From Undibacterium sp. CCC3.4 (GTDB lineage: Bacteria > Pseudomonadota > Gammaproteobacteria > Burkholderiales > Burkholderiaceae_D): DNA of 64,000 nucleotides. Positions within the stretch are counted from its first letter, which is position 1; each line of letters begins with the position of its first letter. The position numbers were made by a program, and so were the translations under genes. A model generated the notes under the pieces. That model was given only the letters and a program-made list of their open reading frames with translations. It had not been told where the DNA came from and ran no database searches. Location of the stretch: contig NZ_CP133779.1 of the NCBI RefSeq assembly GCF_034347425.1, positions 682,001 through 746,000 of the forward strand, given 5' to 3'. Positions 30,266-47,872 of the stretch are shown in pieces.

Positions 30266-33200
30266 AAATTCTGGCACTACGCGGAAAAAATCTGGCCTCG
30301 CTGGCCGGTGAGTTTGCCGTCGATTTCGAGCAAGAGCCCTTGCGTTCGGCCGGATTGTTCGCCATCAGCGGCCCTACCGGTGCCGGCAAGAGCACCCTGC
30401 TCGATGCCTTGTGCATGGCCTTGTATGAAAATACCCCACGGCTGTTCAAAGCGGGCAATAGCAAGCTACCCGATGGCAAAGAATTAGTCACCCAGCAAGA
30501 TACCGGTAACCTGTTACGGCGCGGCTGTGGTGATGGCTATGCCGAGGTCGATTTCGTTGGTAACGACAGCCTGCATTACCGTGCCCGTTGGAGTGTGCGT
30601 CGCTCACGCAACAAGGCCAGCGGCAGTCTGCAACCGACGACCATGCAATTGCATCAGTTACCGCAGATGCAAGCCATAGGTGGCACCAAGACCGAAATCA
30701 AGGCAGCCATAGAGAAACGCATCGGCCTCAGTTTCACCCAGTTCACACGCGCCGTATTACTGGCGCAAAATGAATTTTCCAGTTTTTTGAAAGCTGACGA
30801 GGATGAGCGTGGCTTGCTGCTGGAAACCTTAACCGGTACCGCCCTCTATGCCAGCTTGTCAATCAATGCCTTTGCCCGTGCCAAAGAAGAGCGCGCGGCA
30901 CTGGAACGTTTCCATACTCGTCTGGCCGATAATGCCCCCTTGCCGCCGACCGAGCGCGCCAGCATCGACGCGGCGCGCGAAACGGCACAACAAGAATTGC
31001 AGCAGCTCGATTTACAGAGGCAAAGCTTGCTGTCACAACAAAGCTGGCATCATGATGGTGTGCGCTTGGCCAGCCACGAGCATAGTGCCGCTCTGACTTT
31101 GCAGCAGTGCGAGCAAGCATGTAGCGATGCAGCACCACGACAGCAGCAACTCGACGCCATTGATGCGGTGGAAAGTGCCCGCCCGGTGTTGACAGAGTGC
31201 GAACGCTTGCGACAAGAATTGCTGCGCGACCAGCAAACAATCAGCCTTGGCCACGCTCTCTTATTGCAAGCAGAAGCAGAGGAAGCGGTGCACACCAGGG
31301 CAAGCGATGCGTCACAGCAAGCGCTACAAGCGGCAGAACAACAACAGCATGCCGCCGCCGGTGCACTTGATGAAGCCAAAGCATTGGATGCCCGCATTGC
31401 CACTTTGCTACCGGTCCATGCAACGCTTGAGCAAGCAGAAGCCATATCGACCGAGGCACACAAAAAAGTACGCCAAGACTTACAAGGCCACGAACAGGAA
31501 TCAGCCTTACTCGCCAAGCGTTTGCTCGCCGTCAGCGCGTGGCGCGAACAGCATGCCAACCTGGCGATTCTGGCCCGCCAATGGCCGGTTGCCGACAGCG
31601 AGCTCAAGCAAGCTGCCAGCCTTTCTCGTGAATTACAACAACAGCTTGCCAGCCTCAGCGGTGCGCGCATACAAGCTGCGGCGCAACACAGTGCCTTACA
31701 GCAAACACAACAACAAGTGGCGCTGGCCAGCGCCGCAGTGCGTACCGCCACCGAGCAACGCACGGCGCAGGCCCACGCTTTACAGGCGTATGATTTCGCG
31801 GCATTGCAAGCGCAACGCGCCGACGATGAACAACAGCGCGAACAATTGCACAGCGCCATCCAGTTGGTGCAAGGAATCAATCACCTCGGTGTGCAAGTCG
31901 GCGCGCTGCAGCGCCGTCTGACTGAGAGTGAGCAAGCGGCGCAAGCGGCCAGCTTGGCTGCGACAACAGCACAAGCACGTCTGCCCGACTTGCAGGCGGC
32001 GGTGGAACAAGCCGAACGCGCACTGCGCAGCGCCGAAACGGCAGCAGCGGCTGATGTACGGCAACTGCGTGCCGACTTGTGCGACGATGCCCCCTGCCCG
32101 GTCTGCGGCGCAACGGCGCATCCATATCGCGACAGTGCCCCGGCCTTGGATGAATTGCTCCTGCTCTTGCGTGAGCAATTAAAATCATGTCGGCAGCAAC
32201 AGCAAAGTGCCCATACTGCGCAAGGACAAAATCAAAGCGCGTATCAGCAACAAACTGAATTGGCCAGCAACTTGCGTCAAGAGTTACTCGGTCTACATAC
32301 GAGCTTGCAAGCACAACAGCAAACTTGGCTCAGGCATCCAGGCTTTTGCAGCCTCGATGCAGCAGCGGCAATTCCAGCCTTGCAGCAACAAAACCAAGCA
32401 CTCTCTGAAAAGCAGCAAAACCACCGGCAAATCGAAGCCGCCTACCACCAAACTTCGCAAGCGCATTTAGCCGCACAAGGGCAAGAACAACAAGCCTTGC
32501 AACAGCAACTCGATGCCGCTGCGGCCCAGCATGCTGCCACCACAGAGTTGCAAAAAACCCAGAGTTTGATCGAACACCTCGAGCAGCAACAGCATGCGCA
32601 ACACGCGCGCGTGGAATACTTGCTCAGCAATTTGGCAACGCTTTTCGAGCACGAGGGCTTAGGTCCGGACGATGGCGATTGGCGTGCGCTGTGGCAAGCC
32701 GAGCCGCAGGCATTTCATGCACGTTGCCTGGAACAGGTTTCCAATTGGCAAAGACAACTGCAATTGGAACAAGAATTGCGAGCACAAATCGACAGCTTGC
32801 GCCATGCCTTGGCCCAGCTTGTCGTGCAGCAGGAAAATACTGCCGACGCGGAACAAAGCGCCCGCGCCGCCGTACTAAGCAGCGCGACATCGTTACAAGC
32901 CTTACGTGGGCAACGCACGACCTTGTTTGATGGCGTGTCGATAGCGACCGTCAGCGCAGGCTTGCAGCAAGCGGTACAACATGCCGCCGCCGGATTGGCG
33001 AGCGCCGTCGCCACTCGCGATACCAGCCGCTTGCAATTGAGCCGTCAGCGCGAAGCACAGGCGCAACAGACGGCTTTATTGCTTGCGCATCAAATGCAAG
33101 CCGAGCAGGCAGCGAGCGCGCTCACCGACTGGCTCGCGGCACAGCCAAGCCCAATTGATGAAACACAGTTACGCAACTTACTGAGCCAAGACAAAGCCGA

Positions 33201-33996
33201 ACTGGCGCAACAACGCGCGGCTTTACAAGCGATCAAACAAGCGCGCCTGCAAGCTCATACCATCTGGCAAGAACGTCGCAATCTCTGGCTTACGCAGCAG
33301 GCGGCACGCCCCTTGAATGCCGACGGTGGCACGAGTGAAGTGGCCGAAGTGGAAGCCGCGCTGCTTACTTTGGCACAAGAACGTGAGTTGGTTTGGCAGC
33401 AGTTGAATCGCCATCAACTGGCGGCGGCACAAGATGATGCGCGACGCTTGCAGGCGGCAGACTTACTCGAAGCCATGCAATTGCAACAGGACCGTTGCCA
33501 TGTGTGGAATCAGCTCAATGAACTCATCGGTTCCGGCGATGGGAAAAAATTCCGAAATTACGCCCAGCAAATCACGCTCGATATTTTGCTCGCCTATGCA
33601 AATTCTCACTTGCAGCAACTGGCACGCCGTTACCGCTTGCAACGCATTGTGCATAGCTTGTCCTTGATGGTGATCGATCAGGATATGGGCGATGAAGTGC
33701 GTTCCGTACATTCGCTGTCGGGCGGTGAATCATTTTTAGTTTCGCTGGCACTGGCGCTGGCGCTGGCATCGTTGTCGAGTAATCGTGTCAAAGTCGAGTC
33801 GCTGTTCATCGATGAAGGCTTTGGCAGTCTCGATGCCGCTACCTTGCGGGTAGCCATGGATGCGCTCGATAGTTTGCAAGCTTTGGGGCGCAAAGTCGGT
33901 GTTATTTCGCACGTGCAAGAAATGACGGAACGGATCAGCACACGCATCAATGTACAGAAAACAGCCGGAGGAAAAAGCAGTGTTGCCGTGATTTAA
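30262..33996 (+). CDS. sbcC: exonuclease SbcCD subunit C (Rad50-type SMC-like ATPase)
   Basis: 1244 residues. The Walker A motif GPTGAGKST is near residue 36. A long Gln/Ala-rich coiled coil follows, interrupted by the zinc-hook motif CPVC at 612-615. The second arm returns to the ATPase head with the signature LSGGES (about 1152) and Walker B LFIDEGFGSLD. The hook dimerises two molecules through zinc, and the head drives SbcD nuclease action. The coiled coil is unusually rich in glutamine codons (CAA/CAG). The start overlaps the sbcD stop by four bases. Confidence 0.96.
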   Translation: MKILALRGKNLASLAGEFAVDFEQEPLRSAGLFAISGPTGAGKSTLLDALCMALYENTPRLFKAGNSKLPDGKELVTQQDTGNLLRRGCGDGYAEVDFVGNDSLHYRARWSVRRSRNKASGSLQPTTMQLHQLPQMQAIGGTKTEIKAAIEKRIGLSFTQFTRAVLLAQNEFSSFLKADEDERGLLLETLTGTALYASLSINAFARAKEERAALERFHTRLADNAPLPPTERASIDAARETAQQELQQLDLQRQSLLSQQSWHHDGVRLASHEHSAALTLQQCEQACSDAAPRQQQLDAIDAVESARPVLTECERLRQELLRDQQTISLGHALLLQAEAEEAVHTRASDASQQALQAAEQQQHAAAGALDEAKALDARIATLLPVHATLEQAEAISTEAHKKVRQDLQGHEQESALLAKRLLAVSAWREQHANLAILARQWPVADSELKQAASLSRELQQQLASLSGARIQAAAQHSALQQTQQQVALASAAVRTATEQRTAQAHALQAYDFAALQAQRADDEQQREQLHSAIQLVQGINHLGVQVGALQRRLTESEQAAQAASLAATTAQARLPDLQAAVEQAERALRSAETAAAADVRQLRADLCDDAPCPVCGATAHPYRDSAPALDELLLLLREQLKSCRQQQQSAHTAQGQNQSAYQQQTELASNLRQELLGLHTSLQAQQQTWLRHPGFCSLDAAAAIPALQQQNQALSEKQQNHRQIEAAYHQTSQAHLAAQGQEQQALQQQLDAAAAQHAATTELQKTQSLIEHLEQQQHAQHARVEYLLSNLATLFEHEGLGPDDGDWRALWQAEPQAFHARCLEQVSNWQRQLQLEQELRAQIDSLRHALAQLVVQQENTADAEQSARAAVLSSATSLQALRGQRTTLFDGVSIATVSAGLQQAVQHAAAGLASAVATRDTSRLQLSRQREAQAQQTALLLAHQMQAEQAASALTDWLAAQPSPIDETQLRNLLSQDKAELAQQRAALQAIKQARLQAHTIWQERRNLWLTQQAARPLNADGGTSEVAEVEAALLTLAQERELVWQQLNRHQLAAAQDDARRLQAADLLEAMQLQQDRCHVWNQLNELIGSGDGKKFRNYAQQITLDILLAYANSHLQQLARRYRLQRIVHSLSLMVIDQDMGDEVRSVHSLSGGESFLVSLALALALASLSSNRVKVESLFIDEGFGSLDAATLRVAMDALDSLQALGRKVGVISHVQEMTERISTRINVQKTAGGKSSVAVI

Positions 33997-34125
33997 AAAC
34001 ACCAGCGACAGCGAATGTGACGCGCAGTATACAAACAAACTTTTGCAAAAAATATATCAACAAAATCAGTTGTTTTATTTATACAAACTCTACCCTGAGC
34101 CAGATTTTTTTGAGTTAGATCAATC

Positions 34126-34131
34126 TATAAT
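34126..34131 (+). promoter_or_regulatory. candidate -10 element for the chemosensory operon
   Basis: A consensus TATAAT lies 61 bases before the first start codon of the operon, in an AT-rich spacer. No good -35 is visible at the right distance, so an activator may be needed, or the call may be wrong. Confidence 0.35.
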
Positions 34132-34191
34132 TATTTCGATGGCAGTGCTGTTTTCAAAATAAAATTGATCAACCATTGAGGTGTGTCTGTG

Positions 34192-35571
34192 ATGAAAGAT
34201 TGGCTCAGCGATCTGATGGATTTGGTTACAGCACGCACAGGATTGCTGTTTCGCGAACATGATAGCAGCGCCTTGGCGGCGCGCATTGCCCAATTGCGTC
34301 CACCCTACTGCAGCGCACAAAATTGGCATAGGCAATTAGCCGAGGCAGCGGTTTCCTCGGCCATCTGGAAGCCCTTGCTCGACCTGCTCACGACCGGGGA
34401 ATCCTATTTTTTTCGCGACCATAGCCAGATCGCGCTGCTCAAAGAACACTTGTTGCCAGCACTGATAGAACGGCGTCGCTCAGAGCGCCGTTTGCGCATC
34501 TGGAGCGCGGCCTGCGCCAGCGGTGAAGAGGCTTACTCGATTGCCATTTTGCTGCAACAATTGTTAGGTTTATTATGTCCGGGACCGGCTTGGGATATTC
34601 ACATTCTCGCCACCGACATCAATCAAACTTTGTTGGCCAAAGCGCGCAGCGGTATCTATAGTCAATGGTCATTTCGTCGGGTCGATCCTTTACTGCAAGC
34701 AAGCTACTTTACCCCGCATCCGGAAGGCTGGGAAATCGCTGCCGACCTGCGCAATATGGTGCAATTTACTTACGGCAATTTGGTCGAAGATCAGTTCCCT
34801 GACTCGGCGGTGGATTTGTGTGATTTTGATCTGATCGTCTGCCGCAATGCCTTCATTTATTTTCATCCGGAAACGGTAGGGAAAGTCGCACAAAAACTGG
34901 CCGGCTGTTTATCTGAGCACGGTTACCTGATGACCGGCCATACCGAACTCGGATTCCTCAATCAAGCCGGTTTGCGCAGTGAATGGCTCAATGATTTGAT
35001 CGTGTATCGGCGCGAGCCAGCAACAACGGCCATGCAAACGATACAAGCGCAAAATCCGCTGCCCTTACCCAAGCCTATCCCCAAGCCGACGCAGATGGCA
35101 CGCATCGCCCACCACGCTGCCTTAGCACCGCCGCAAGCTGCTAGTAAAACCAGTAACAGCACGGCGCTAACGGCCTTATTGGCGCAAGCAAAACACGCAG
35201 CCAATCTGGGCTTGTATCGTCAAGCCAGCAGTTTTTGCGAAACCGCAATTACCCTCGATGCTGCAGCAGCAGCGCCGTATTTCGTTCTCGCACAGATCGC
35301 CGTCATTGAGGGCCGGCGCGAAGATAGTAAAAAATTTCTGGATAAAAGCCTCTACCTCGATCCGCATTTCTTGGCAGCACATATCGAGCTATTTCATCTA
35401 CATCGCCAAGAGGGTAACCATGCTGCGGCAGAGAAACTGTTGCAATTGATCGGACAATTTCTGCGGGTCTTGCCCGACGATGCCATCGTGCCATTTTACG
35501 AAGAGTTGAAAGTAGCGGATCTATTGCATACCCTGAACAAATTCAACGGCGACATGACGCGAGGCAAATAA
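34192..35571 (+). CDS. CheR-type protein-glutamate methyltransferase with TPR tail (WspC-like)
   Basis: 459 residues from the ATG at 34192, with GAGG ten bases upstream; GTGs at 34183 and 34189 are poorer. The CheR N-terminal helical domain is followed by the SAM-binding domain (LRIWSAACASGEEAYSIA, ATDINQTLLAKARSGIY, DLIVCRNAFIYF). After a Pro-rich linker (about 285-315), two to three TPR-like helical repeats fill the C-terminus. CheR with TPR is the form found in Wsp (WspC). It methylates the receptor to tune signalling. The stop overlaps the next start as TAATG. Confidence 0.92.
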   Translation: MKDWLSDLMDLVTARTGLLFREHDSSALAARIAQLRPPYCSAQNWHRQLAEAAVSSAIWKPLLDLLTTGESYFFRDHSQIALLKEHLLPALIERRRSERRLRIWSAACASGEEAYSIAILLQQLLGLLCPGPAWDIHILATDINQTLLAKARSGIYSQWSFRRVDPLLQASYFTPHPEGWEIAADLRNMVQFTYGNLVEDQFPDSAVDLCDFDLIVCRNAFIYFHPETVGKVAQKLAGCLSEHGYLMTGHTELGFLNQAGLRSEWLNDLIVYRREPATTAMQTIQAQNPLPLPKPIPKPTQMARIAHHAALAPPQAASKTSNSTALTALLAQAKHAANLGLYRQASSFCETAITLDAAAAAPYFVLAQIAVIEGRREDSKKFLDKSLYLDPHFLAAHIELFHLHRQEGNHAAAEKLLQLIGQFLRVLPDDAIVPFYEELKVADLLHTLNKFNGDMTRGK

Positions 35572-36602
35572 TGCATGCATCCGGCAATCTTTATTTTCTC
35601 TTCAGTTTGCGCCAGCAATTGTACGCAATCGAAGCGCTGCGCGTGTCCATGACATTCAGCTTACCAGCCATGGAAAGCTTGCTCAATGCCCCCCCTTACG
35701 TTGCCGGCGTGATCAATCTGCGCGGCACGATTCTTCCGCTGTTCGATCTGCAATTATTACTCGGTGGCCATGCCCAGGCGCGCAGTCTCAATGATGCCGT
35801 GGTGGTACTGGAACATGCCAGCGGTAGCATCGGCATCATCGTCAATGAAGTCTCCGATGTGATCCTCATCGATAGTGCCGATATCGATGAGCCGCCGCAA
35901 TGGGAAGCCGCGCGTCAGTCTCACCCTGGTTTGGTCGCTGGCATGGCGCGTGTGGGTCTGCGCATCATCAGCCTGCTCGATGCGGATTTATTACTGCAAT
36001 TACGCGCTGGAGCAACTGCATGGATGCCCACTCACGATACGCCCATCACACAGGCCGAGATCAGCCCCGCTGCGACGGATTTCGACGCCGTCGGCTTACG
36101 CTTGCTACAACAACGGGCGGCAGAACTGATTGCTGGCGAGAACACGGATTCGAGCCTGCCGCGACGCCAGTTCGCCGCCGTGTTTCTCGGTCGCGAATAT
36201 TTCGGACTCGAGATTGCTTACATCACCGAATTTACCCGAAGTAAAAATTTGGTACCGCTGCCGAATTGCCCGCCGCATGTGCTGGGCAATATGAATTTAC
36301 GCGGCAATATTCTGACGGTGATTGATATCCGCAGCAGCCTGTGCATGCCGACCGCACAGTTTGAACGCAATGCCAAAATCGTCGTCTGCGTGGTCGATGC
36401 GATCACCGTCGGCATCGCGGTCGATGAGGTGGACGATATCGTTGCGATCAATAACGAGGACGTCGTCGATGCACCGGCTTCGGCGCATCCGGAAGCACTC
36501 GCTTATTTCATCGGCACGATCGAGTATCGCAACAAGGCTATGAGCCTGCTCAACTTGCCGGCTTTATTGAGTAGTAACACGCTGGTGGTCGATCAGACCT
36601 GA
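35571..36602 (+). CDS. tandem CheW-CheW coupling protein
   Basis: 343 residues. The first CheW domain (about 5-145) carries VAGVINLRGTILPLFDLQ; the second (about 195-335) carries VLGNMNLRGNILTVIDIR. Each has the conserved NLRG strand. CheW bridges receptors to CheA. Wsp systems use two separate CheW proteins, WspB and WspD; here both are in one chain, joined by a linker of about 45 residues. Overlaps the methyltransferase stop by one base, which suggests coupled translation. Confidence 0.9.
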   Translation: MHASGNLYFLFSLRQQLYAIEALRVSMTFSLPAMESLLNAPPYVAGVINLRGTILPLFDLQLLLGGHAQARSLNDAVVVLEHASGSIGIIVNEVSDVILIDSADIDEPPQWEAARQSHPGLVAGMARVGLRIISLLDADLLLQLRAGATAWMPTHDTPITQAEISPAATDFDAVGLRLLQQRAAELIAGENTDSSLPRRQFAAVFLGREYFGLEIAYITEFTRSKNLVPLPNCPPHVLGNMNLRGNILTVIDIRSSLCMPTAQFERNAKIVVCVVDAITVGIAVDEVDDIVAINNEDVVDAPASAHPEALAYFIGTIEYRNKAMSLLNLPALLSSNTLVVDQT

Positions 36603-36647
36603 AGGCGGACGGTTTTCAGTATTGCTGCACCTCTCTGGGAGTCTGTG

Positions 36648-38117
36648 ATGAATTTTAATACCATGAAAATGTCGACCCGCATCACCTTGGGTTTTGCGAT
36701 CATGTTGTTGATGACTGCCGCCATCGGTGCCGTCAGTTTGATCAGTCTCAATGATCTCAAGGGCAGCTTGGTCAACATCAGTGAAGATCAAGTACCGCGT
36801 ATCGTCTTTGCCGCAGAATTGGAAACGAGTGTCTTGCAAAGCGCGCGTCATACGCGCAATATGCTCATCCTCAGCGACAGCGATGCCATCAACGAAGAGT
36901 TGAAATCGCTCGACACGCAGATACAACGACGCAGCGAAATGCTCAAAAGTTTAGACGTGGAATTGGAAGCAAACAGCCCCGACCGCGTCTTATTCAAGAG
37001 CATCGTCGATGCCAGTAATGCCTATCTGGAACCGGAAGCGACATATGCAAAGCAGATACGTGCCAAAGATTTTGTCAAAGCAAAAAAAACCTTGCTCGAT
37101 GACACGCGGCCACGGCAATTGGTTTACATCAAGAGCATAGAAAAGTTTTTTCAATTCGAAAAAGAAGCGATCTCGCAAGCCGTCAAAGCCTCGGTCGACA
37201 CCCATACCGCGGTACATCACTTGATCATCATCGTCAGCGTCAGCGCCGCCCTTATCGGTTTGCTCACCGCCTTCGTCTTGATACGCAGCGTGGCGCGCAG
37301 CATGGGCATCGGGATTGCGGCGGCAGCCACGAGTTCCTCACAGATTGCTGCCACCATCATCGAGCATGAGCGTACTGCCAGCCAACAAGCGGCGATGACG
37401 AATGAAATCACCACCACACTTGAGCAACTGGCGGTCTCGTCGCGCCAATCGACCGAGCAATCGGGCAGCGCCGCCGAAATGGCAAAAAATGCCAGCACCA
37501 TGACCAAGGATGGCAATGATGCGGTACGTCAAGTAGTGGAAGCGATGAATGGCCTCAAACTTAAAGTCAGCGCCATCGCCGAACAAATTTTATCGCTGTC
37601 GGAACAGACCGGACAAATCGGCAGCATCACCGAATTGCTCAAGGATTTATCGAATCAGATCAATATGTTAGCGCTCAATGCTGCCGTCGAAGCGGCGCGT
37701 GCCGGCGAACACGGCAAAGGCTTTTCCGTCGTCGCCACCGAAGTGCGCAAGCTCTCGGTGGAGAGTAAAAAATCGGCCGAGCAAGCCAAGGCCATCGTCG
37801 CCGGCATACAAAAAGCCTCGGACACCACCATCATGCGCACTGAGGAAGGCTCGCGCAATATTGAAGCGGTGATGAGCATCGTCATGCAAGTCAATGACTT
37901 GTTCGAATCGATTTCCAACATCAGCAACCTGGTATTCCAAAGCTCACAGCAAAGTGCGCTCAATGCCCGCCAACAAACAGTGGCGATTGCCGAAGTAGTC
38001 AGCGCCGCCAATACCATGAACGCCGGGGCGCGCGAAACTGCACTGGGTTTGAGTCAGACCAAGATGGCGATCGAGAATTTGGAAGCTACCAATCAACAAT
38101 TGAAAAAAATTATTTGA
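36648..38117 (+). CDS. methyl-accepting chemotaxis receptor without a recognisable HAMP
   Basis: 489 residues from the ATG at 36648, with GGGAG six bases upstream. One membrane helix is at about 11-33. A periplasmic helical sensor (about 34-187) of four-helix-bundle MCP type follows, then a second helix at about 190-212. The region after it goes almost directly into the cytoplasmic coiled coil with no recognisable HAMP. The signalling hairpin is clear ([20 protein letters not shown]). The ligand is unknown. It sits between the CheW pair and CheA in one operon. Confidence 0.9.
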
Positions 38118-38151
38118 CTGCGCATAGCAAAGCGTAGCGATGGGAGTAGTC

Positions 38152-40383
38152 ATGATAGCTGATGGCGAGATGCGCGATCTGTTTCGCATCGAGAGCGGGG
38201 AACATTTACAGGCGATCGAAAGCGGTTTGCTGCGCATGGAAAAAAATCCTGCCGATAGTGCACTGCTGGAAGAATTGTTTCGGGAAGCGCATAGCCTCAA
38301 AGGAGCGGCACGCATGCTTGACCTGCTCGACATCGAGCGGATTTTCCATCGCTTCGAAGATATTCTCGGCCATGCGCGCAGCGGTACGCAAGACTTGAGC
38401 AGCATGCTGATCGACCGTATGTATCAGTCGCTCGAGGCGATACGGCGCTTGGTCGATGAGGCCGTCGGCGGCGTCGCGGCCGAAGTCGATGTCAACGCGA
38501 TTGTCGAGTCGCTCAAGCCGCTTGCCAGCAGCGCGACTGCGGCCAGCGCGCCCGGCAGCACGCCCTCACACAGCACGGTCACCCAGGCCGAGGCCAGCGT
38601 CGAAGTGGCACCGACCCAGATCGATGAGTTGTTCAACGTCAGCAGCGCCATCCTCAATGAAAAGGCCAGCGCCGGGCAGTTCGTGATCGAGACTATCCGC
38701 GTAGAAACCCGCAAACTCGATACCTTGATGACGCATGCCGGCGAACTGACGGTAGCTAAAGTGCGCATCGCACAACGCCATCGCGAACTCGAAGAATTGC
38801 AAACCCTATGGGAACAGCTGGGCTTGCAAATGCGCAGAATGGCCTTCGATAATCCAGCCTTGGCGCTGTTATCGATGCAATTTACCGCATCAGTCGAGCA
38901 TCTCGTCAATGCCGCGGCGGAAGACAGTACGCGCCTTAACTTCGTCGCCGGCGAGCTAGAAGATGGCATTCGGGCAGCGCGCTTGCTGCCCTTGTCGACG
39001 ATATTTTCGCTGTTTCAAACCATGCTCAGGAAGCTGGCACGGGAATGCAAAAAGGAAGTCACCCTCAGCATCGAGGGGGGGGAAATCGCGGCGGACAAGC
39101 GCATCCTCGAAGAGATCAAAGACCCGCTCATGCATATTCTGAGAAACGCGGTCGATCATGGCATCGAATCGCCCGAGCAGCGCAGTGCTGCTGGCAAACC
39201 GCCGTGCGGGCGAATACAGTTACGGGCGCAACAATTGTCATCCACCATACGCATCGATATCGAAGACGATGGCGGCGGTCTTGATCTGGCAGCGATTCGT
39301 CGTTCAGCCTTGAAAAAAAATCTGATGCCGGCGTCGGAAATCGCCGCCCTCGCGGATGAGCAAGTGATGAATTTAATTTTCATGCCGGGTTTTTCTACCA
39401 GTAATTTTATTTCTGATGTATCCGGCCGCGGCGTCGGCATGGATGTGGTGCGCGCCAACGTCGTGCGCCTCAAAGGCACGGTGACGGTGGCCTCGGTGCC
39501 TGGCGTATCGTGTCGCATCAGCATAGACTTGCCCTTGACGCTGGCCACTTCGCGCGTGCTGATCATCGTCGATCAAGCGGTCAAGTATGCGATTCCGGTC
39601 GAGTATGTCGAAAAATCCTGTCATATCGGACCCGAGCAATTGTTTACCATCGATGGACAACAAGTGCTGATGTTTGATGACGTCGCCATCGCCGCGGCAC
39701 GTTTGAAAAATTTACTGCAATTTCATCGCGCCGATTTCCTGCCGCCAGCCGCCAACCAGCCGGCGCGCTTGGCGGATGCCCATGCACCCTGCATTATTTT
39801 GCAGGTCGATGGCGAGCGCATCGGCCTGATCGTCGACGAATTATTGGATGAACAGGAAATTGTCCTGAAATCGCAAAGCATGTTACTGCGAAAAATTAAT
39901 GATTTATCCGGCGTCACCATACTCGGCAGCGGTGAGGTGTGCATGGTCTTGCATCCGCCTGATTTTCTGGCGCAATTACAGCAATTCTCTTCGCAAGACA
40001 GTAATGCCGCTGTCGCTGCACCGTCCCTGATCTTACTGGCCGAAGATAGCCTCAGTACGCGCGCACAACTCAAGCGCATACTCGAAGCCGGTGGCTATCA
40101 GGTGGTGCTGGCGATCGATGGACTTGACGCTTACGGTAAGCTGGAAAATCAAGCCTTCCGAGCGGTGGTCAGCGATATCAATATGCCCAATATGGATGGA
40201 CTGATGTTGACGCAAAAAATTCGTGCCGACAAACGCTTTGCCGAGTTGCCTGTCATTTTAGTCACCATGCAAGCCAGCGCAGCCGATCAAAAGCGCGGCA
40301 TGGATGCCGGTGCCAATGCCTATATTTCCAAGGCGACGTTTGAACAAAGTCTGCTGCTCGATACCTTACACCGACTGATTTGA
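38152..40383 (+). CDS. CheA-type histidine kinase with C-terminal receiver (WspE-like)
   Basis: 743 residues. The start at 38152 is chosen over the ATG at 38140 because GGGAG (38142-38146) lies inside that extension, five bases before the second ATG. Domains: HPt with phospho-acceptor H47 in AHSLKGAAR, dimerisation domain, HATPase (HILRNAVDHGIESPEQR, DDGGGLDLAAI, GRGVGMDVVR), CheW-like domain, and a receiver with acceptor D675 (VSDINMP). CheA-REC fusions are typical of Wsp and Frz-like systems. It would phosphorylate CheB and a downstream response regulator. Confidence 0.93.
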   Translation: MIADGEMRDLFRIESGEHLQAIESGLLRMEKNPADSALLEELFREAHSLKGAARMLDLLDIERIFHRFEDILGHARSGTQDLSSMLIDRMYQSLEAIRRLVDEAVGGVAAEVDVNAIVESLKPLASSATAASAPGSTPSHSTVTQAEASVEVAPTQIDELFNVSSAILNEKASAGQFVIETIRVETRKLDTLMTHAGELTVAKVRIAQRHRELEELQTLWEQLGLQMRRMAFDNPALALLSMQFTASVEHLVNAAAEDSTRLNFVAGELEDGIRAARLLPLSTIFSLFQTMLRKLARECKKEVTLSIEGGEIAADKRILEEIKDPLMHILRNAVDHGIESPEQRSAAGKPPCGRIQLRAQQLSSTIRIDIEDDGGGLDLAAIRRSALKKNLMPASEIAALADEQVMNLIFMPGFSTSNFISDVSGRGVGMDVVRANVVRLKGTVTVASVPGVSCRISIDLPLTLATSRVLIIVDQAVKYAIPVEYVEKSCHIGPEQLFTIDGQQVLMFDDVAIAAARLKNLLQFHRADFLPPAANQPARLADAHAPCIILQVDGERIGLIVDELLDEQEIVLKSQSMLLRKINDLSGVTILGSGEVCMVLHPPDFLAQLQQFSSQDSNAAVAAPSLILLAEDSLSTRAQLKRILEAGGYQVVLAIDGLDAYGKLENQAFRAVVSDINMPNMDGLMLTQKIRADKRFAELPVILVTMQASAADQKRGMDAGANAYISKATFEQSLLLDTLHRLI

Positions 40384-40390
40384 GATAAGT

Positions 40391-41440
40391 GTGAAAAAAA
40401 TTCGCGTGTTACTGGCCGATGATACGCCCCTGGCATTGAACAATTTTCAGTGCCTGATGAGCGATGTCAGCGATATCGAATTCCTCGCCTGCGCCTGCGA
40501 CAGCGCACAGGCGCTTGAGCTCATTGCGCGCCACGAACCCGATGTGCTGTGCGCTGATTATCTGCTCGCCAGCCGCGATGGCCAAGGGTTGCTGCGAAAA
40601 ATTATGTTGCGCCACCCATTGCCGATACTGGTAGCGCGCAGCAGTGCGCAGCTCGACGGCGAACAGATGCGCGCATTGTTGGCCGCCGGCGCGCTCGATT
40701 GTGTCGGCAAACCTCAGTGGCAATTCACCGACGAGCAACAGCATGCCAAGCAGGAATTCATCAGTAAAATCCGCATCATCGCCGGCGTCCATGTATTTCG
40801 TAAGAGTCCGCGCTCGATTGCTGCTGCGCCGGCAGCACTGCCAGTCAGCAGTGGCCTGGCCTACCGCCTGCTGGTGATCGGTGCCTCCACTGGCGGACCG
40901 GAAGCGCTGGCCGCCGTACTCAAGCAATTACCGGCCGATTTTCCCCTGCCCATCGTCTGCGTGCAGCATATCAGCGATGGTTTTTTACATAGCTTCATGG
41001 TCTGGTTGAGTGAAAAATCGGGCTTCCGCTGCAGCGCTGCGCAAGACGGTGCGCGGCCGACCAATAAACAAGTTTATTTTCCGCAAGAAAAACGACAACT
41101 CGAATTCGACGCCGCCGGTCGCTTCCTCATTGGCAGCGGCCATGCCCGCGATGGCCACTGCCCATCTGTCAGCAGCAGCATGCAATCGGCGGCTGAGCGC
41201 TATGGTGCCAGCGTCATCGCCGTCCTGCTGACTGGTATGGGCAACGACGGTGCCGCTGGCATGCTGGCCGTACGCCAAGCTGGCGGCATGACGATTGCCC
41301 AAGATGCCGCCAGCAGCGTGGTATTCGGCATGCCGGCGCAGGCGATTGAACTTGGGGCGGCAAAAATGATTCTGCCACTCAGGGACATCGCTGCCCAACT
41401 GATAAGCTTATGCAGGAGTCCTGTCCATGACCTCACTTGA
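40391..41440 (+). CDS. CheB-type methylesterase with degenerate receiver (WspF-like)
   Basis: 349 residues from a GTG at 40391. The catalytic domain has the complete triad S166 ([10 protein letters not shown]), H193 (VQHISDGF) and D286 ([10 protein letters not shown]). The receiver keeps the acidic pair (LADD), D56 and K107, but R83 stands where a Thr or Ser is normal, and the MPxMDG segment after the aspartate reads ASRDG. Phosphorylation may therefore not switch it normally. It removes receptor methyl groups. It overlaps the hybrid kinase gene by 14 bases. Confidence 0.9.
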
Positions 41441-44162
41441 ATCCGGCACTGCGGGTGCCACGGTATTAATCGTCGAAGACAGTAATATTCAGGCGATCAT
41501 GCTCAAACGCGTACTGCTCGCGGCCGGCTACCAAGTGCTGTTGGCAAAAGACGGCAGCGAAGGCTTGGCCATGGCGCAGCGGGAAAACCCAGCCATCGTC
41601 ATCAGCGATATCAATATGCCGGGTATGAACGGCTTTGAATTGTGCAGCGCCCTTAAAAGCGCACCGCAGTTACAAGATATTCCGGTGATCTTACTGACCT
41701 CGCTGACCGAAAACAGTGACGTCATCAAAGGCCTGGCCTGTCGGGCCGATAATTTCCTCACCAAACCGTATGACACCGAAGATTTACTGTCACGTATCAA
41801 ATACATGCTCTTGAGTCGGCACTTGGCCACGCCCGCGCAAAGTGCCGAGGGGGTGCCGGTATTTTTTTGTGGCGAACCGCATTTCATTCGTTGCGAGCCA
41901 CAAGCCATGCTCAGTCTGCTGCTCTCGGTCTACGAGACAGCGGTAGGAAATAATCGAAAATTATTAGCCATGCAAGAAACGATACGGCTGGCCAATGAAG
42001 GTCTGGAACAGCGCATCGCCGTGCGTACCAGCGAATTATCGGCGGAAGTGGCCAAGCATAAAGAGACCGAATTGAAAATCGTCACGCTCAACCGTGAGCT
42101 AGAAATGCGCGTGGCCGAACGCACCGCGCAGCTGCAATTGAGTTATGCAGATCTGGAACAGGCACGCGATGCGGCGGAACAGGCGACCCTGGCCAAAAGC
42201 GACTTTCTCGCTTCCATGAGCCACGAAATTCGCACGCCGATGAACGCCATCATCGGCCTCTCCCACCTGGCACAGAAAACCGAGTTAAGCCCGAAGCAAA
42301 AGGATTATCTCAATAAAATTCAAGGTGCGGGCAAACACTTACTCGGCATCATCAACGACATTCTCGACTTTTCCAAAATTGAAGCCGGCAAGCTCGATAT
42401 CGAAAAGATCGATTTCATGCTCGAAAAAGTACTCGACAATGTCGCCAACCTGATCAATGAAAAAGCCGCCACCAAAGGTTTGGAATTGGTATTTGATATC
42501 GACCAAGCGGTACCACAGCATTTGCTGGGCGACCCGACCAGGTTGGCGCAAGCGCTGATTAATTATGCCAACAATGCCGTCAAGTTCACCGATGCCGGCG
42601 TCATCAAGGTCATTATTCGCGTGCGCGAACACAGCGCCGAACAAGTACTGCTGCATTTTGCCGTGCAAGATACCGGGATTGGTTTGAGCCCACAGCAAAT
42701 CAGTAAATTATTCAATTCTTTCCAACAAGCCGATAGCGGCACCACGCGCAAATACGGCGGTACCGGCTTGGGCTTGGTGATTGTTAAAAAACTGGCGCAA
42801 CTGATGGATGGCGATGCCGGTGTCGAAAGCACGCAGGGGGTCGGCAGCACCTTTTGGTTTTCGGCGCGCCTGGGGATTGCCGCGCACGCTGATACGCACT
42901 TCAAGCCACAGCCGATTTTACAGGGGCGACGCATGTTGATCGTCGATGATGTCGAAAGCGCGCGCGAGGTGATGCAAGATTTACTCGAAACCATGTCATT
43001 CCAGACCGAGGCGGTGCATTCGGGCGCGGCGGCGCTGCACTCATTGCGCCAGCAACAGGCGCAAGGAAAAGTGCCGGATGTGATTTTCATCGATTGGAAA
43101 ATGCCGGAAATGGATGGTTTGATGGCAGCCCAACAGATCCTCGCCATGGGCCTGCTGCCGCCACCGAAAATCATTATGGTGACGGCCTATGACGGCAGCG
43201 AACTGCAAGCCGAAGCACAAAGCATAGGCATCGAGCAGATCCTCATCAAACCGGTGCAAGCATCGCAACTGTTTAATGTCGTGCTCAAAGTGCTCAGCGA
43301 TCAGACTGGCAGTGCGCCAGCGCAGACCGGCGTACAGAGTGAAGAAATGACCACGCTGCGCGGTAAACGCATTCTGCTGGTGGAGGACAATGAACTCAAC
43401 CAGCAAATCGCATGTGAAATGCTGGAGTCTGAAGGTCTGCACGTGGCCGTGGCAGAAAACGGCGCGGTCGGCGTGCGCATGGCATTAGCAGGTGAGTACG
43501 ATCTGATACTAATGGATATGCAAATGCCGGTGATGGATGGGGTCAGCGCCGCGCGCGCGATTCGTCAGCAAGAAACGCGGCCACGCACACCGATTCTGGC
43601 CATGACCGCGAATGCCATGCAAAGCGATCGCGATGCCTGCCAGGCAGCCGGCATGGATGATTTCATCAGCAAGCCGATCGATCCCGATTTACTCTGGCGC
43701 AGTTTGCTGCAATGGTTACCGACGTACGCGCCAAGCGCTGTCAGCGTTGCAGCCAGCACCACTCCGCGGCACGACAGCGCCGGACTGCCGCTGCATATCA
43801 GCGGGCTCAATATTGAAAAAGGCTTACGTCTGTGCATGGGCAAGCCGGTATTTTATCGCTCCATCCTGCGCAAATATTTCGAGTCACAAAAAACTACCGC
43901 CGCCGACATCATGAGCGCCTGGCAAGATAAAAACATCGACACCGCTGTACGGCTTGCGCATACCCTCAACAGCACCTCCAGTTACGCCGGTGCCGAAGCG
44001 GTACAGCCGCTGGCCGCCGCGCTTGAACTGGCGTTCAAAAGCGCGGCTAGCGAAGATCAAATCACGCCCTTGCTAGCGCAATTGACCGCGCAACTGACGC
44101 CACTGATGGCCCAGCTCGAACAAGAATTTCAAGCGGAGCTCACACCCCGGCCAGTTTCCTGA
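41427..44162 (+). CDS. hybrid histidine kinase REC-HK-REC-REC-HPt
   Basis: 911 residues; AGGAG precedes the ATG. An N-terminal receiver ([12 protein letters not shown]) is followed by a coiled coil, HisKA with H266 in SHEIRTPMN, and HATPase with NAVKFT, DTGIGLS and GGTGLGLVI. Two more receivers follow ([23 protein letters not shown]), then a C-terminal HPt with H845 in AHTLNSTSS. There are no membrane helices, so the signal must be cytoplasmic or come through the first receiver. Its place between cheB and the HD-GYP gene suggests a relay from CheA into this kinase and on to the HD-GYP receiver. Confidence 0.92.
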
Positions 44163-44190
44163 CCGACCCATTTCACCGAGAGAGGCAGCT

Positions 44191-45255
44191 ATGCTGAACC
44201 AACAAACAGTATTGGTCGTTGACGACACCGAGATCAATCTCGTCATGATGGAAATGGTGTTGTGCGACAATTACCGCGTGACGCTGGCCAACAGCGGTGA
44301 AGCGGCACTGGCGGCGGCCAAAGCGGATCCGCCCGATATCATTCTGCTCGACATCGTGATGCCGGGCATGGATGGCTATACGGTATGCGAAGAACTCAAG
44401 AAAGATTTACGGTTAGCGAAGATTCCAGTGATTTTTGTTACCACCATGAGCGAGGTGGAAGATGAAACCAAGGGCTTCGATGCCGGCGGCGTCGATTACA
44501 TCACCAAACCTATCAGTCCGGCACTGGTACTGGCGCGCCTCAAGACCCATCTGACCATGTATGACCAACAGCGCGAACTCGAAGTACAGGTGGGGCAGCG
44601 CACGATAGAACTCGAAGCGACTAAAAAACTGATCGTGCGCCGCTTGGCACGCGCGTCCGAATTCAAAGACGATTACACCGGCAACCATATCATTCGCATG
44701 AGCCATTACTCACGCTGCATAGCTCTGGAATACGGGCTCGATGCCGCCACTGCCGAATTGCTGATGGATGCCGCGCCGATGCATGATGTCGGCAAGATCG
44801 GCATTCCCGATGCCATCATGCACAAACCGGGCAAGCTCGACGAAGAAGAGTGGAAAGTCATGCGCCGCCATCCTGAAATGGGTGCGGAAATTCTCGGTGA
44901 AGCGATTAACCCGCTGCTATCGGCGGCACGCAGCGTAGCCCTGACCCACCACGAAAAATGGGATGGCAGCGGCTATCCGCGGCAACTCAAGGGTGAGGCC
45001 ATTCCGCTGTTCGGCCGCATCGTCGCCATGGCCGATGTGTTCGATGCCTTAACCAGCAAACGCCCGTACAAGGAAGGCTGGAGCGTGGAAATGGCGCTGG
45101 AAGAAATCAAAAAGGGGGCTGGCAGCCATTTCGATCCGCAACTGATCGCGCCGCTAGAACGCGCGCTGCCAGCCATGCTCAAGATTCGCGACATGTATGC
45201 CGATGACAAGGGGCATTTGCTTGATAGTGATATCAGCAAACCGCTGGGAGCCTGA
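44191..45255 (+). CDS. response regulator with HD-GYP domain (c-di-GMP phosphodiesterase)
   Basis: 354 residues; GAGAGG precedes the ATG. The receiver (about 1-120) has the acidic pair VVDD, the acceptor LLDIVMPGMDG and the lysine in ITKP. A short coiled coil links it to the HD-GYP domain (about 150-330): MHDVGKIGIPD with H198-D199, HHEKWDGSGYP with GYP at 261-263, and MADVFDALTSKRPY. RpfG-type HD-GYP proteins hydrolyse c-di-GMP. It is the last gene of the chemosensory operon and the expected output, in the position where Wsp has the cyclase WspR. Confidence 0.93.
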   Translation: MLNQQTVLVVDDTEINLVMMEMVLCDNYRVTLANSGEAALAAAKADPPDIILLDIVMPGMDGYTVCEELKKDLRLAKIPVIFVTTMSEVEDETKGFDAGGVDYITKPISPALVLARLKTHLTMYDQQRELEVQVGQRTIELEATKKLIVRRLARASEFKDDYTGNHIIRMSHYSRCIALEYGLDAATAELLMDAAPMHDVGKIGIPDAIMHKPGKLDEEEWKVMRRHPEMGAEILGEAINPLLSAARSVALTHHEKWDGSGYPRQLKGEAIPLFGRIVAMADVFDALTSKRPYKEGWSVEMALEEIKKGAGSHFDPQLIAPLERALPAMLKIRDMYADDKGHLLDSDISKPLGA

Positions 45256-45387
45256 GCGGCATGGACCACTCAGGTGATTTTGCAGCCGACTCCGTTCTGC
45301 CGCTCAGGTTCCTAGCCTGAGCACGATTGCCGCCAGTGGCATGGCGGGAACATACGGAAATAGCCACGACCAAATCACTACGATGCC

Positions 45388-45693
45388 TTACTTGGCATCG
45401 TGCTTAGGCCGTTCCACCGTCGAGGTCAGCACTTGGGCACTCTGCGCATCGACAACGACATCATATTCTTTGTTGCCATCCCACACCTCGACTTGGTACA
45501 CATCGCCATGGACGCGGTGTTCGAATTCAGCTTCCAAGGCTTTGCCGTTGACATGCTTTTCTGCTATTGAGACCGCCTCGCTCAGGTTGATTTTGGCATT
45601 CGCCAAAGCTTCAATATCGCGCCGATCAGCCGCCTGTGCCAAGCTGCACAGCAGTGTCGCGCTCAAAAGGCCGAGTTTGATTCCGATTTGCAT
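45388..45693 (-). CDS. periplasmic PepSY-domain protein
   Basis: 101 residues from the ATG at 45693; a longer frame to 45759 lacks a signal-peptide start. A signal peptide (MQIGIKLGLLSATLLCSLAQ, then AAD) is followed by a PepSY domain: INLSEAVSIAEKHVNGKALE, YQVEVWDGNKEYDVVVDAQS. PepSY domains occur in protease inhibitors and redox partners. The stop codon sits inside a hairpin, ACGATGCC-GGCATCGT (45380-45401). It converges with the HD-GYP gene. Confidence 0.85.
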   Translation of the reverse strand: MQIGIKLGLLSATLLCSLAQAADRRDIEALANAKINLSEAVSIAEKHVNGKALEAEFEHRVHGDVYQVEVWDGNKEYDVVVDAQSAQVLTSTVERPKHDAK

Positions 45694-45864
45694 GATGTGT
45701 TTTCCTATTGAAAATTTTGCCTTGATTGGCAACAGCAGCTTATCGCTTCGTTCATACAAAATCCTGATCCAATAGTGATAGGAGTATCACCGCACACCAG
45801 CAAACATGCGCGGCCGCAAGGGAAGCGCGGTATACTTGGTTTTGACCCTACCGAGGAAATTACA

Positions 45865-46355: not shown

Positions 46356-46426
46356 CCTCGCGCTTGAGTATGTGAGCGAGCCGCTGTCGTGTATTTGATC
46401 TTGCTCAATAATTAATGAAGGAAAGC

Positions 46427-47872
46427 ATGTCCGCTACCTCCTCTGCTGCTCCGCATTCACATCCCAGCCGCGCCACGACCCCCTTGGTCCACCGCATAGG
46501 CATACGCAGCTATCGCTTCGCCGACCTCAAAGACTTGCTCGCCAAAGCCAGCCCGGAACGCTCGGGCGACCATTTGGCCGGGCTGGCAGCCGAGAGCGCA
46601 GAACAAAGAGTGGCCGCGCAAATGTGCTTGGCAGATTTACCCCTGCGCCATTTTCTCAATGAAGTGGTGATTCCGTATGAGAGCGACGAAGTCACGCGTC
46701 TGATCATCGATAGCCACGATGTGGCCGCTTTCGCGCCACTGCGTCACCTGACCGTCGGCGGCTTGCGCGATTACTTACTCAGCGATGCAGTCGGCACGGC
46801 GCAACTACAGGCTTGCGCCGCCGGTATCACGCCCGAAATGGCGGCGGCTGTGAGTAAGATCATGCGCATTCAAGATTTAATCTTGGTGTCGGCCAAAGTG
46901 CGGGTGGTCACGCGCTTCCGCAACACCTTGGGCTTGCCGCGCAGTTTGGCGACTCGCTTACAACCGAATCACCCTACCGATGACCCCAGTGGCATTGCCG
47001 CCGTGATACTTGAAGGTTTGCTGTACGGCAGTGGCGACGCCGTGATCGGCATCAACCCAGCCAGCGACAATGTCGAGCAAGTGGTACGACTCTTAAGCAT
47101 GCTCGATGAAATCATCAGCCATTATGCAATTCCTACCCAATCCTGTGTACTCACCCATGTCACCAATACCCTGCAGGCAATAGAACGCGGGGCCCCGGTC
47201 GATCTGGTGTTTCAATCGATCGCCGGCACCGAGGCGGCCAACCGCAGCTTCGGCATCGACTTGGCCTTGCTGGCCGAGGCGCGTGCGGCCGCGCTCGCGC
47301 TCGGGCGTGGTACCGTCGGCCAAGAAGTGATGTATTTCGAAACCGGTCAAGGCAGTGCCCTGTCGGCCCAGGCCCATCATGGCGTCGACCAACAAACCTG
47401 CGAAGCCCGTGCCTATGCTGTGGCGCGCCAGTTTCACCCTTTGTTAGTCAATTCCGTGGTCGGTTTCATCGGCCCGGAATATTTATATGACGGCAAGCAA
47501 ATCATTCGCGCCGGTTTGGAAGATCATTTCTGCGGCAAATTACTCGGCTTGCCGATGGGATGCGATGTTTGCTATACCAACCATGCCCAGGCCGACCAAG
47601 ATGACATGGATGTGCTGTTAACCCTGCTGGCCAGCGCCGGTTGCAACTTCATCATGGGCATACCCGGTTCTGACGATATCATGCTTAATTATCAAACCAC
47701 CTCATTTCACGATGCGCTGTATGCGCGCCGCTTGCTAGGGCTCAAGCCCGCTCCGGAATTTGCCGATTGGTTACAGCACAGCGGCATCGTCACCGATGGC
47801 CACGCGGCCGGTGCCAGCCTGCCGCCACTGTTTGCTGCCGCCATGCGCCGGCTCGGCGGGCGATCGTCATGA
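46427..47872 (+). CDS. eutB: ethanolamine ammonia-lyase large subunit
   Basis: 481 residues from the ATG at 46427, with AAGGA four bases upstream; the ATG at 46415 is an alternative without such a site. EutB signatures: SYRFADLKDLLAKASPERSGD, YESDEVTRLIID, QSCVLTHVTNTLQAIERGAP, VGFIGPEYLYDGKQIIRAGLEDHFCGKLLG and MGCDVCYTNHAQADQDDMD. With EutC and adenosylcobalamin it splits ethanolamine into acetaldehyde and ammonia. No microcompartment genes are present, so this is a cytoplasmic nitrogen or carbon pathway. It overlaps eutC by four bases (ATGA). Confidence 0.95.
   Translation: MSATSSAAPHSHPSRATTPLVHRIGIRSYRFADLKDLLAKASPERSGDHLAGLAAESAEQRVAAQMCLADLPLRHFLNEVVIPYESDEVTRLIIDSHDVAAFAPLRHLTVGGLRDYLLSDAVGTAQLQACAAGITPEMAAAVSKIMRIQDLILVSAKVRVVTRFRNTLGLPRSLATRLQPNHPTDDPSGIAAVILEGLLYGSGDAVIGINPASDNVEQVVRLLSMLDEIISHYAIPTQSCVLTHVTNTLQAIERGAPVDLVFQSIAGTEAANRSFGIDLALLAEARAAALALGRGTVGQEVMYFETGQGSALSAQAHHGVDQQTCEARAYAVARQFHPLLVNSVVGFIGPEYLYDGKQIIRAGLEDHFCGKLLGLPMGCDVCYTNHAQADQDDMDVLLTLLASAGCNFIMGIPGSDDIMLNYQTTSFHDALYARRLLGLKPAPEFADWLQHSGIVTDGHAAGASLPPLFAAAMRRLGGRSS

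Follow-up and report, generated by a model that had tools for sequence, protein, structure and literature searches.

Chemosensory pathways with a CheR-TPR protein, the alternative cellular functions (ACF) class, have been described as having multidomain regulators of varied kinds, of which around 40% carry a histidine-kinase module (Munoz-Martinez 2012, PMC3447774). Where arrays act on cyclic di-GMP (c-di-GMP), they are presented with cyclases as outputs (PMC8846402), and membership of the Wsp group is defined by wspA-wspF synteny, i.e., methyl-accepting chemotaxis protein (MCP), CheW, CheR, CheW, CheA, CheB (Kessler 2021, PMC8552884). In the Che3 system of Rhodospirillum centenum, CheA3 phosphorylates REC1 of CheS3, which according to the authors' model switches off the kinase activity of CheS3; CheY3 receives phosphate from CheS3~P alone, and the receiver of CheA3 is likely to be a sink (PMC3868531). 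The hybrid kinase RpfC is modelled to act on RpfG via a phosphorelay, with phosphorylation activating the phosphodiesterase (PDE) of RpfG (PMC3749722), and in Lysobacter, Wsp and RpfG meet through WspR-RpfG binding (PMC9758175); these accounts, and those below, are taken from the accessible portions of the papers cited. The present analysis concerns a seven-gene operon of Undibacterium sp. CCC3.4 lying in a 64 kb stretch (hereafter the window; contig NZ_CP133779.1, positions 682,001 to 746,000) of a 4.59 Mb single-contig genome, in which the genes of a chemosensory array are followed by those of a hybrid histidine kinase (HK) and a REC-HD-GYP protein. We regard it as fairly probable that the operon is of the ACF type and that its array governs a phosphorelay resembling RpfC/RpfG.

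The seven open reading frames (ORFs) lie on the plus strand (34183-45255) with intergenic gaps of -1, 42, 22, 7, -14, and 28 bases (Table 1). Pfam domains identified in the first five were CheR with TPR; two CheW; 4HB_MCP_1 with MCPsignal; Hpt, H-kinase_dim, HATPase, CheW, and Response_reg; and Response_reg with CheB_methylest. The sixth encodes three Response_reg domains with HisKA, HATPase, and Hpt, and the seventh Response_reg with HD_5. These domains ruled out chance or an ORF artefact, and the gene order is not fortuitous because its core recurs in many other genomes. Phosphorylation residues are present in CheA (HPt H51, REC D679), CheB has D56 and GASTGG, and the hybrid kinase has H266, the aspartates of all three RECs, and HPt H845; the genes, their order, and the key residues were as an earlier, sequence-only reading of this DNA had given them. 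No NCBIfam model reached its curated cut-off among the listed matches to the seven proteins (for three of them, the best 25). The operon has in common with the ACF class both CheR-TPR and multidomain response regulators within the cluster (PMC3447774).

The sequence-only reading had also called the operon Wsp-like, and CheR-TPR, CheA-REC, and the 4HB MCP are indeed shared with Wsp (PMC8846402). As a statement of kinship, however, this was not supported: the genes stand in another order, the CheW adaptors are fused, and CheA has a different phylogenetic position. Neighbourhoods were assembled from CheA- or HD-GYP-similar loci and annotated with purpose-built profiles; domain calls outside the window relied on seeds taken from the window itself and from GGDEF/EAL loci in its genome, and weak domains (some HPt, divergent REC) were missed. 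In a CheA tree of 138 rows, from which sequences shorter than 590 aa, below 200 bits, or without a C-terminal REC (seven being kept by name) and loci L303, L011, and L178 had been dropped, the window CheA fell within a clade of 52 rows (Shimodaira-Hasegawa-like approximate likelihood ratio test, SH-aLRT, 100), separate from a 25-row Wsp-type clade (SH-aLRT 100); the tree included no named Pseudomonas WspE. Judged by record titles, the 52-row clade has members from cyanobacteria, Nitrospirota/Nitrospinota, a spirochaete, Ignavibacteria, and proteobacteria, and its usual order is CheR, CheW-CheW, MCP, CheA-REC, CheB, and then a position occupied by an effector, which we term the slot. The CheW-CheW fusion was found in the CheA gene run in 37/52 rows and elsewhere in the locus in three of the remaining 15; the other twelve have none in the DNA examined, many of these loci being short or beginning near CheA. 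In cyanobacterial members (L043, L046-L048, L050-L053, L057, L059, L068-L070), the slot mostly shows no effector gene. The order in a neighbouring 27-row clade is mostly CheW-CheR-CheW-MCP-CheA-CheB (17/27 by rule), with GGDEF-EAL, GGDEF, or HK effectors, whereas MCP-CheW-CheR-CheW-CheA was found in 19/25 Wsp-type rows under a loose rule by which one CheW or CheR may be missing.

The outputs were likewise compared, counting four effector types on the same strand within 7 kb wherever a locus had no less than 4 kb of downstream DNA. GGDEF was encoded downstream in 25/25 Wsp-type, 17/23 neighbouring-clade, and 9/50 window-clade loci, and HD-GYP in 0/25, 2/23, and 10/50 (window included), respectively, and in 0/59 other loci; none of the four types was found in 16 of the 50 window-clade loci. 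The enrichment of HD-GYP in the window clade was significant against the Wsp-type loci (Fisher p 0.025) and against all other loci (10/50 vs 0/59, p 0.0002) but not against the neighbouring clade (p 0.32), these p values being rough since the rows are related, and the 59 loci are not a clean control, as they retain a few duplicates or fragments of the window clade left off the tree (e.g., L303, L011). In planctomycete loci L071 and L073, CheW and CheA are separated by an HD-GYP gene, and CheB is followed by two REC-GGDEF genes, so that one chemosensory cluster has both cyclase and phosphodiesterase. A true Wsp system in which WspR was exchanged for another effector would explain the shared domains but is highly improbable, given the different CheA clade, the order CheR, CheW-CheW, MCP, CheA, CheB with its fused CheW, the constancy of GGDEF in the Wsp-type loci, and an output consisting not of WspR (REC-GGDEF) or a 5' WspH but of 3' REC-HK-REC-REC-HPt and REC-HD-GYP proteins. 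The Wsp R- and H-systems have the same kinds of Che components, and in the H-systems a hybrid kinase replaces WspR, but order, CheW fusion, and CheA clade all differ from those of the window, and wspH is 5' while the window kinase is 3' (PMC8552884); the term HD-GYP does not occur in that paper. Wsp membership was thus rejected after comparison of the order of the genes, the fused CheW, the position in the CheA tree, the output, and the slot linker described below, and, judged by sequence, the operon is not a Wsp system.

Three lines of sequence evidence, namely receiver trees, a linker, and a motif at the receiver start, indicate that the domain CheA would address is the N-terminal one of the kinase's receivers. 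In the trees, this receiver grouped with post-CheB receivers fused to HK, GGDEF, GGDEF-EAL, or HD-GYP (the slot family), while those of the Wsp-type clade formed a group of their own (100); an approximately unbiased (AU) test rejected its forced placement in the HD-GYP group (p 6.1e-5). The second of these trees (77 rows) omitted seven rows that were too long or uncertain, every row of the Wsp type, and the majority of the receivers from CheA and from the interior of kinases. A profile of the linker that follows the receiver matched 44/50 slot proteins of the window and neighbouring clades, having been trained on slot proteins and then counted on them, while a first single-sequence search had found 37/100 of the set. 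By effector, the linker was present in 25/27 HK, 3/3 HD-GYP, 12/12 GGDEF-EAL, and 4/8 GGDEF proteins. It was found in 0/25 Wsp-type slot proteins and in 0/24 distinct REC-HD-GYP comparison proteins, the window's included. The 60 matches among 11,631 ORFs of CheA loci comprised 53 REC-effector proteins, two CheB (of 162), two lone receivers, and three others; in the HD-GYP loci, only the window kinase, added as a control, was matched. No Pfam match to the linker was obtained at E up to 1, and AlphaFold2 modelling of the receiver-linker segment (16 sequences, mean predicted local distance difference test score 87.8) gave a receiver, a beta-hairpin at residues 139-150, and a long helix at 154-198. 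The slot protein of a Nitrospinota metagenome-assembled genome (MAG; L041:13509), read as HK-HD-GYP (512 aa), has the linker and may be a receiver-HD-GYP protein with an overlooked receiver.

The receiver of the window kinase begins with EDS..Q, as do those of 20/21 slot kinases of the window clade and 21/21 slot proteins of the neighbouring clade, although only 2/3 slot HD-GYP and 1/5 slot GGDEF proteins of the window clade do so. The corresponding motif is EDS..T in 13/14 CheA receivers and DD...N in 20/20 HD-GYP orthologues, and the window HD-GYP protein has DDT..N.

Different relatives were found for the rest of the kinase. When 72 kinase cores were placed in a tree, that of the window grouped with L040 (100/97) and then with L058 (98/56), L362 (99/96), and L361 (98/92). 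The L361 and L362 kinases are the partners of the HD-GYP proteins that, within the family sample, are closest to that of the window (58 and 54% identity, respectively), and were picked by HD-GYP and not by kinase similarity. A same-strand HK gene was found upstream of the HD-GYP gene in 19/20 fetched loci, the exception lying at the edge of a contig (gaps of up to 1700 bases were accepted, and in L362 a second REC-HD-GYP gene lies between); 18 of these 19 kinases carry at least one receiver, and che genes were detected in none of the 20 loci. Six partner kinases examined with Pfam all have PAS and at least two hydrophobic segments. Cache or MHYT passed the cut-off in three of them and fell short of it in two, and HPt passed it in four, narrowly missed it in one, and was lacking from the sixth. 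In the window kinase, by contrast, no hydrophobic or transmembrane segment was evident by hydropathy, and neither PAS nor any other Pfam sensor domain was detected. Like RpfC/RpfG, the window thus encodes an HPt hybrid kinase beside a REC-HD-GYP regulator, a pair also present without che genes in L361 and L362, but RpfC has a sensory input domain of its own where the window kinase has a slot-family receiver at its N-terminus (PMC3749722). The window kinase therefore looks chimeric, with the slot receiver and linker at its N-terminus and a core from a kinase/HD-GYP pair. Because the two halves have conflicting relatives, slot effectors on the one hand and partner kinases of che-less HD-GYP loci on the other, the simplest account would be that a fusion swapped the sensor of the kinase of an RpfC/RpfG-like pair for a chemosensory receiver.

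The receiver of the window HD-GYP protein grouped with those of 20 HD-GYP orthologues (100/99) encoded beside a kinase and without che genes, and it has neither the slot linker nor the EDS..Q start. Since the N-terminal receiver and linker of the kinase are of the slot family, and the relatives of the kinase core and HD-GYP protein are a che-less pair, signalling in series from CheA through the kinase to HD-GYP is probably the better fit. The sequence-only reading had instead envisaged the hybrid kinase as a second branch into the same receiver. Such an arrangement, with CheA and the kinase both phosphorylating the HD-GYP receiver, or CheA alone doing so and the kinase acting as modulator, is rather unlikely in the face of the HD-GYP receiver's own relatives, but it would agree with the tightness of the operon and draws on some of the observations that weigh against the serial reading. 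These include the AU test, by which placement of the HD-GYP receiver in the slot clade was not rejected (p 0.143), and the 39% identity between it and the N-terminal receiver of the kinase, the highest for any pair among the six window receivers (the kinase N-terminal and CheA receivers share 32%). Moreover, slot-family receivers are fused directly to HD-GYP in L045, L060, L065, and L225, and 5/9 REC-HD-GYP proteins of window-clade loci carry the linker; in family members with such a fusion, direct control of HD-GYP by CheA is likely.

Further points on the same side concern the trees themselves. Support for the slot receiver clade is just 66/85, and four REC-REC-GGDEF proteins (L297, L309-L311) and the window-clade L054 fell outside it. 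The kinase comparison set was drawn from CheA and HD-GYP searches and not kinase-first; L058, within the core group of the window, is itself a slot kinase; 12/18 rows labelled as HD-GYP partner kinases formed a separate clade (100/99), only 2/18 joining the window core; and the rows for L375 and L376 are kinases other than the adjoining ones identified later. Behind its histidine motif, the window HPt domain carries N in place of the K found in many such domains. Finally, the closest CheA in named GTDB contigs (L040, an Iodobacter MAG; 61% identity) is encoded with the same six genes, the chimeric kinase included, but with no adjoining HD-GYP gene, the one homologue of the HD-GYP protein in that genome (46%, E <= 1e-40) being elsewhere. 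With regard to the seven-gene order that the sequence-only reading proposed to seek in other genomes, the core order was thus found in many, but the nearest relative lacks the seventh gene in place.

In the serial arrangement that we prefer, signals would be received by the 4HB chemoreceptor, its methylation being set by CheR-TPR and CheB. CheA would autophosphorylate and phosphorylate mainly the receiver at the N-terminus of the hybrid kinase, while the REC of CheA itself probably serves as a phosphate sink. That receiver, the sole input domain found in an apparently cytosolic kinase, would set the activity of the HisKA core, from which phosphate would pass to an internal REC, the HPt domain, and the HD-GYP receiver, and the HD-GYP protein would then hydrolyse c-di-GMP. 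Each phosphotransfer step, as well as the c-di-GMP substrate, we infer from sequence. The R. centenum Che3 system is similar in having CheA-REC, a second kinase with an N-terminal receiver, and then a response regulator; its CheS3 is a REC-REC-PAS-HWE kinase acting on the single-domain CheY3, as opposed to the REC-HK-REC-REC-HPt and REC-HD-GYP proteins of the window (PMC3868531). If the slot receiver activates the kinase, the sign would be opposite to that of Wsp. With a receiver that inhibits the kinase, by analogy with CheS3, PDE activity would fall and c-di-GMP would rise when the array is active, as in Wsp. Sequence does not reveal which of the two signs the output has, and the opposite response claimed in the sequence-only reading was not supported.

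The HD-GYP protein has REC D54, H166, H198-D199, H227, H253-H254, D282, and GYP at 261-263, so that the H198-D199 and GYP motifs reported earlier were indeed seen. With the closest solved relative, 4mcw (PmGH; E about 1e-55), seven of eight metal-ligand positions (H166, H198, D199, H227, H253, H254, D282) are kept in addition to GYP. At the eighth position, Y162 replaces a Glu of 4mcw that is the eighth metal ligand of PmGH. The best-scoring NCBIfam model, below its cut-off, was the NosR-family c-di-GMP phosphodiesterase. Phosphodiesterase activity is expected of this protein. The Y162 replacement, the naming of another solved relative (5z7c) as specific for 3'3'-cyclic GMP-AMP, and the regulation of WspR by Lysobacter RpfG through binding with no need for PDE activity (PMC9758175) would each suit a protein that mainly does something other than lower c-di-GMP, be it through preference for another cyclic dinucleotide or for pGpG, or as a binding adaptor. 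We consider this unlikely, as the ligand positions, GYP, and the 4mcw match speak against it, and the 34 GGDEF matches in the genome make the presence of c-di-GMP likely.

A close CheA (E <= 1e-80) was found in 1/43 genomes of the genus, that of the window itself, and the best other CheA match among 145 genomes of the family was 44% identical (G060). On this distribution, the operon has probably either been acquired by horizontal transfer or been lost in many lineages. No empty site was found at the insertion point among the genus genomes; where both sbcC and eutB were found, they were far apart or on separate contigs. That the operon was recently acquired and is decaying or unused, and hence not wired in, would be in keeping with this restricted distribution, but is quite improbable with ORFs open, key residues present, and G+C contents at third codon positions of 0.56-0.66, within the range of sbcC (0.58) and eutB (0.67).

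The same genome has three che clusters of other order with CheA proteins without a receiver (L324-L326) and a 616-aa CheA-like protein without detected che neighbours (L327), and the only other CheA with a receiver is a 2027-aa protein of ChpA size. Of the 34 GGDEF matches, 30 loci were read and gave two REC-GGDEF-EAL proteins and one HPt-REC-REC-GGDEF protein; neither a plain REC-GGDEF nor the slot linker was found in these 30, which bears on the possibility, raised in the sequence-only reading, that a separate WspR homologue is the real target. Its pairing of a CheR-TPR/CheA-REC array with a motif-intact REC-HD-GYP protein in place of WspR stood up to the Pfam, residue, and GGDEF surveys. 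HD_5 matches in the genome number seven, the window's included. The HPt-REC-REC-GGDEF protein (G000:C1:4515670, L137), with no CheA match nearby, resembles the cyclase that belongs to chemosensory cluster 2 in Halomonas (PMC5907407).

Upstream of the operon lie sbcD-sbcC, the end of sbcC being 186 bases away, and the start of CheR is either GTG 34183 or ATG 34192, the latter used earlier being plausible. No sigma-70-like site was seen on the plus strand of the 186-base gap; promoter-like sites numbered 12 against 9.2 expected, and terminator-like sites 13 against 14.8. Downstream are a convergent PepSY gene, an SSB-like gene, and eutBC. The plus-strand ORF at 45341-45775 was dismissed as spurious, since the opposite-strand PepSY gene overlaps it. 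The eutBC genes (46415-48744) encode ethanolamine ammonia-lyase, and eutB was matched in 9/43 genus genomes at E <= 1e-60; at the same threshold SbcC (30262-33996) was matched in only 22/43.

Table 1. Coordinates of the operon, its domains of interest, and its borders in the window.
Feature	Position	Strand	Basis or remark
Gap between sbcC and the operon, 186 bases	33997..34182	+	Likely promoter region
CheR methyltransferase with C-terminal TPR	34192..35571	+	Pfam
Fused CheW-CheW adaptor	35571..36602	+	Two CheW stretches (Pfam)
MCP with 4HB_MCP_1 sensory domain; no HAMP given by Pfam	36645..38117	+	Pfam
CheA (HPt, kinase, CheW, C-terminal REC)	38140..40383	+	Pfam, residues, CheA tree
CheB (REC and methylesterase)	40391..41440	+	Pfam, residues
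Hybrid kinase REC-HK-REC-REC-HPt	41427..44162	+	Pfam, hydropathy
N-terminal receiver of the hybrid kinase, effector-slot family	41457..41810	+	REC trees
Post-receiver linker, predicted beta-hairpin and long helix, no Pfam match	41799..42041	+	Profile, AlphaFold2
Kinase core HisKA-HATPase	42192..42872	+	Kinase-core tree
Two internal receivers of the relay	42927..43694	+	Pfam, residues, REC tree
HPt domain (H845)	43863..44111	+	Pfam, residues
REC-HD-GYP response regulator, predicted c-di-GMP phosphodiesterase	44191..45255	+	Pfam, structure alignment, residues
Convergent PepSY-domain gene; operon boundary, not a member	45391..45693	-	Overlaps the spurious ORF 45341-45775

The class cd00077, the HD domain, is relevant to how far such outputs have been described before. 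It is named as 'metal-dependent phosphatase' in the legend to Fig. 7 of the ACF study, the accessible text of which speaks of protein phosphatases, contains no occurrence of the term HD-GYP, and was not seen to mention the fused-CheW clade, the slot linker, or the kinase chimera (PMC3447774). In the search listings and in the portions read of open-licence PMC papers, no description was found of an array with HD-GYP output, nor of one that controls an HD-GYP phosphodiesterase via a relay of this kind, a search in which the linker was not a target.

Taken together, the window and its multi-phylum clade present chemosensory arrays beside HD-GYP in at least two architectures, with the slot receiver either fused to HD-GYP or placed on a relay kinase. 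More tentatively, and with the balance of probability somewhat against it, the slot receiver and its beta-hairpin-helix linker might constitute a dedicated, unannotated plug by which a large group of arrays from several phyla docks exchangeable effectors (HK, GGDEF, GGDEF-EAL, and HD-GYP), and which in the window was spliced onto the kinase of a kinase/HD-GYP pair; if so, one fusion would have put a whole c-di-GMP-degrading relay under array control. The operon offers a concrete, testable case of the re-plumbing of an array, in which the sensor of a kinase would have been exchanged for a receiver, and it cautions that the sign of array systems is not to be judged from the last enzyme alone.

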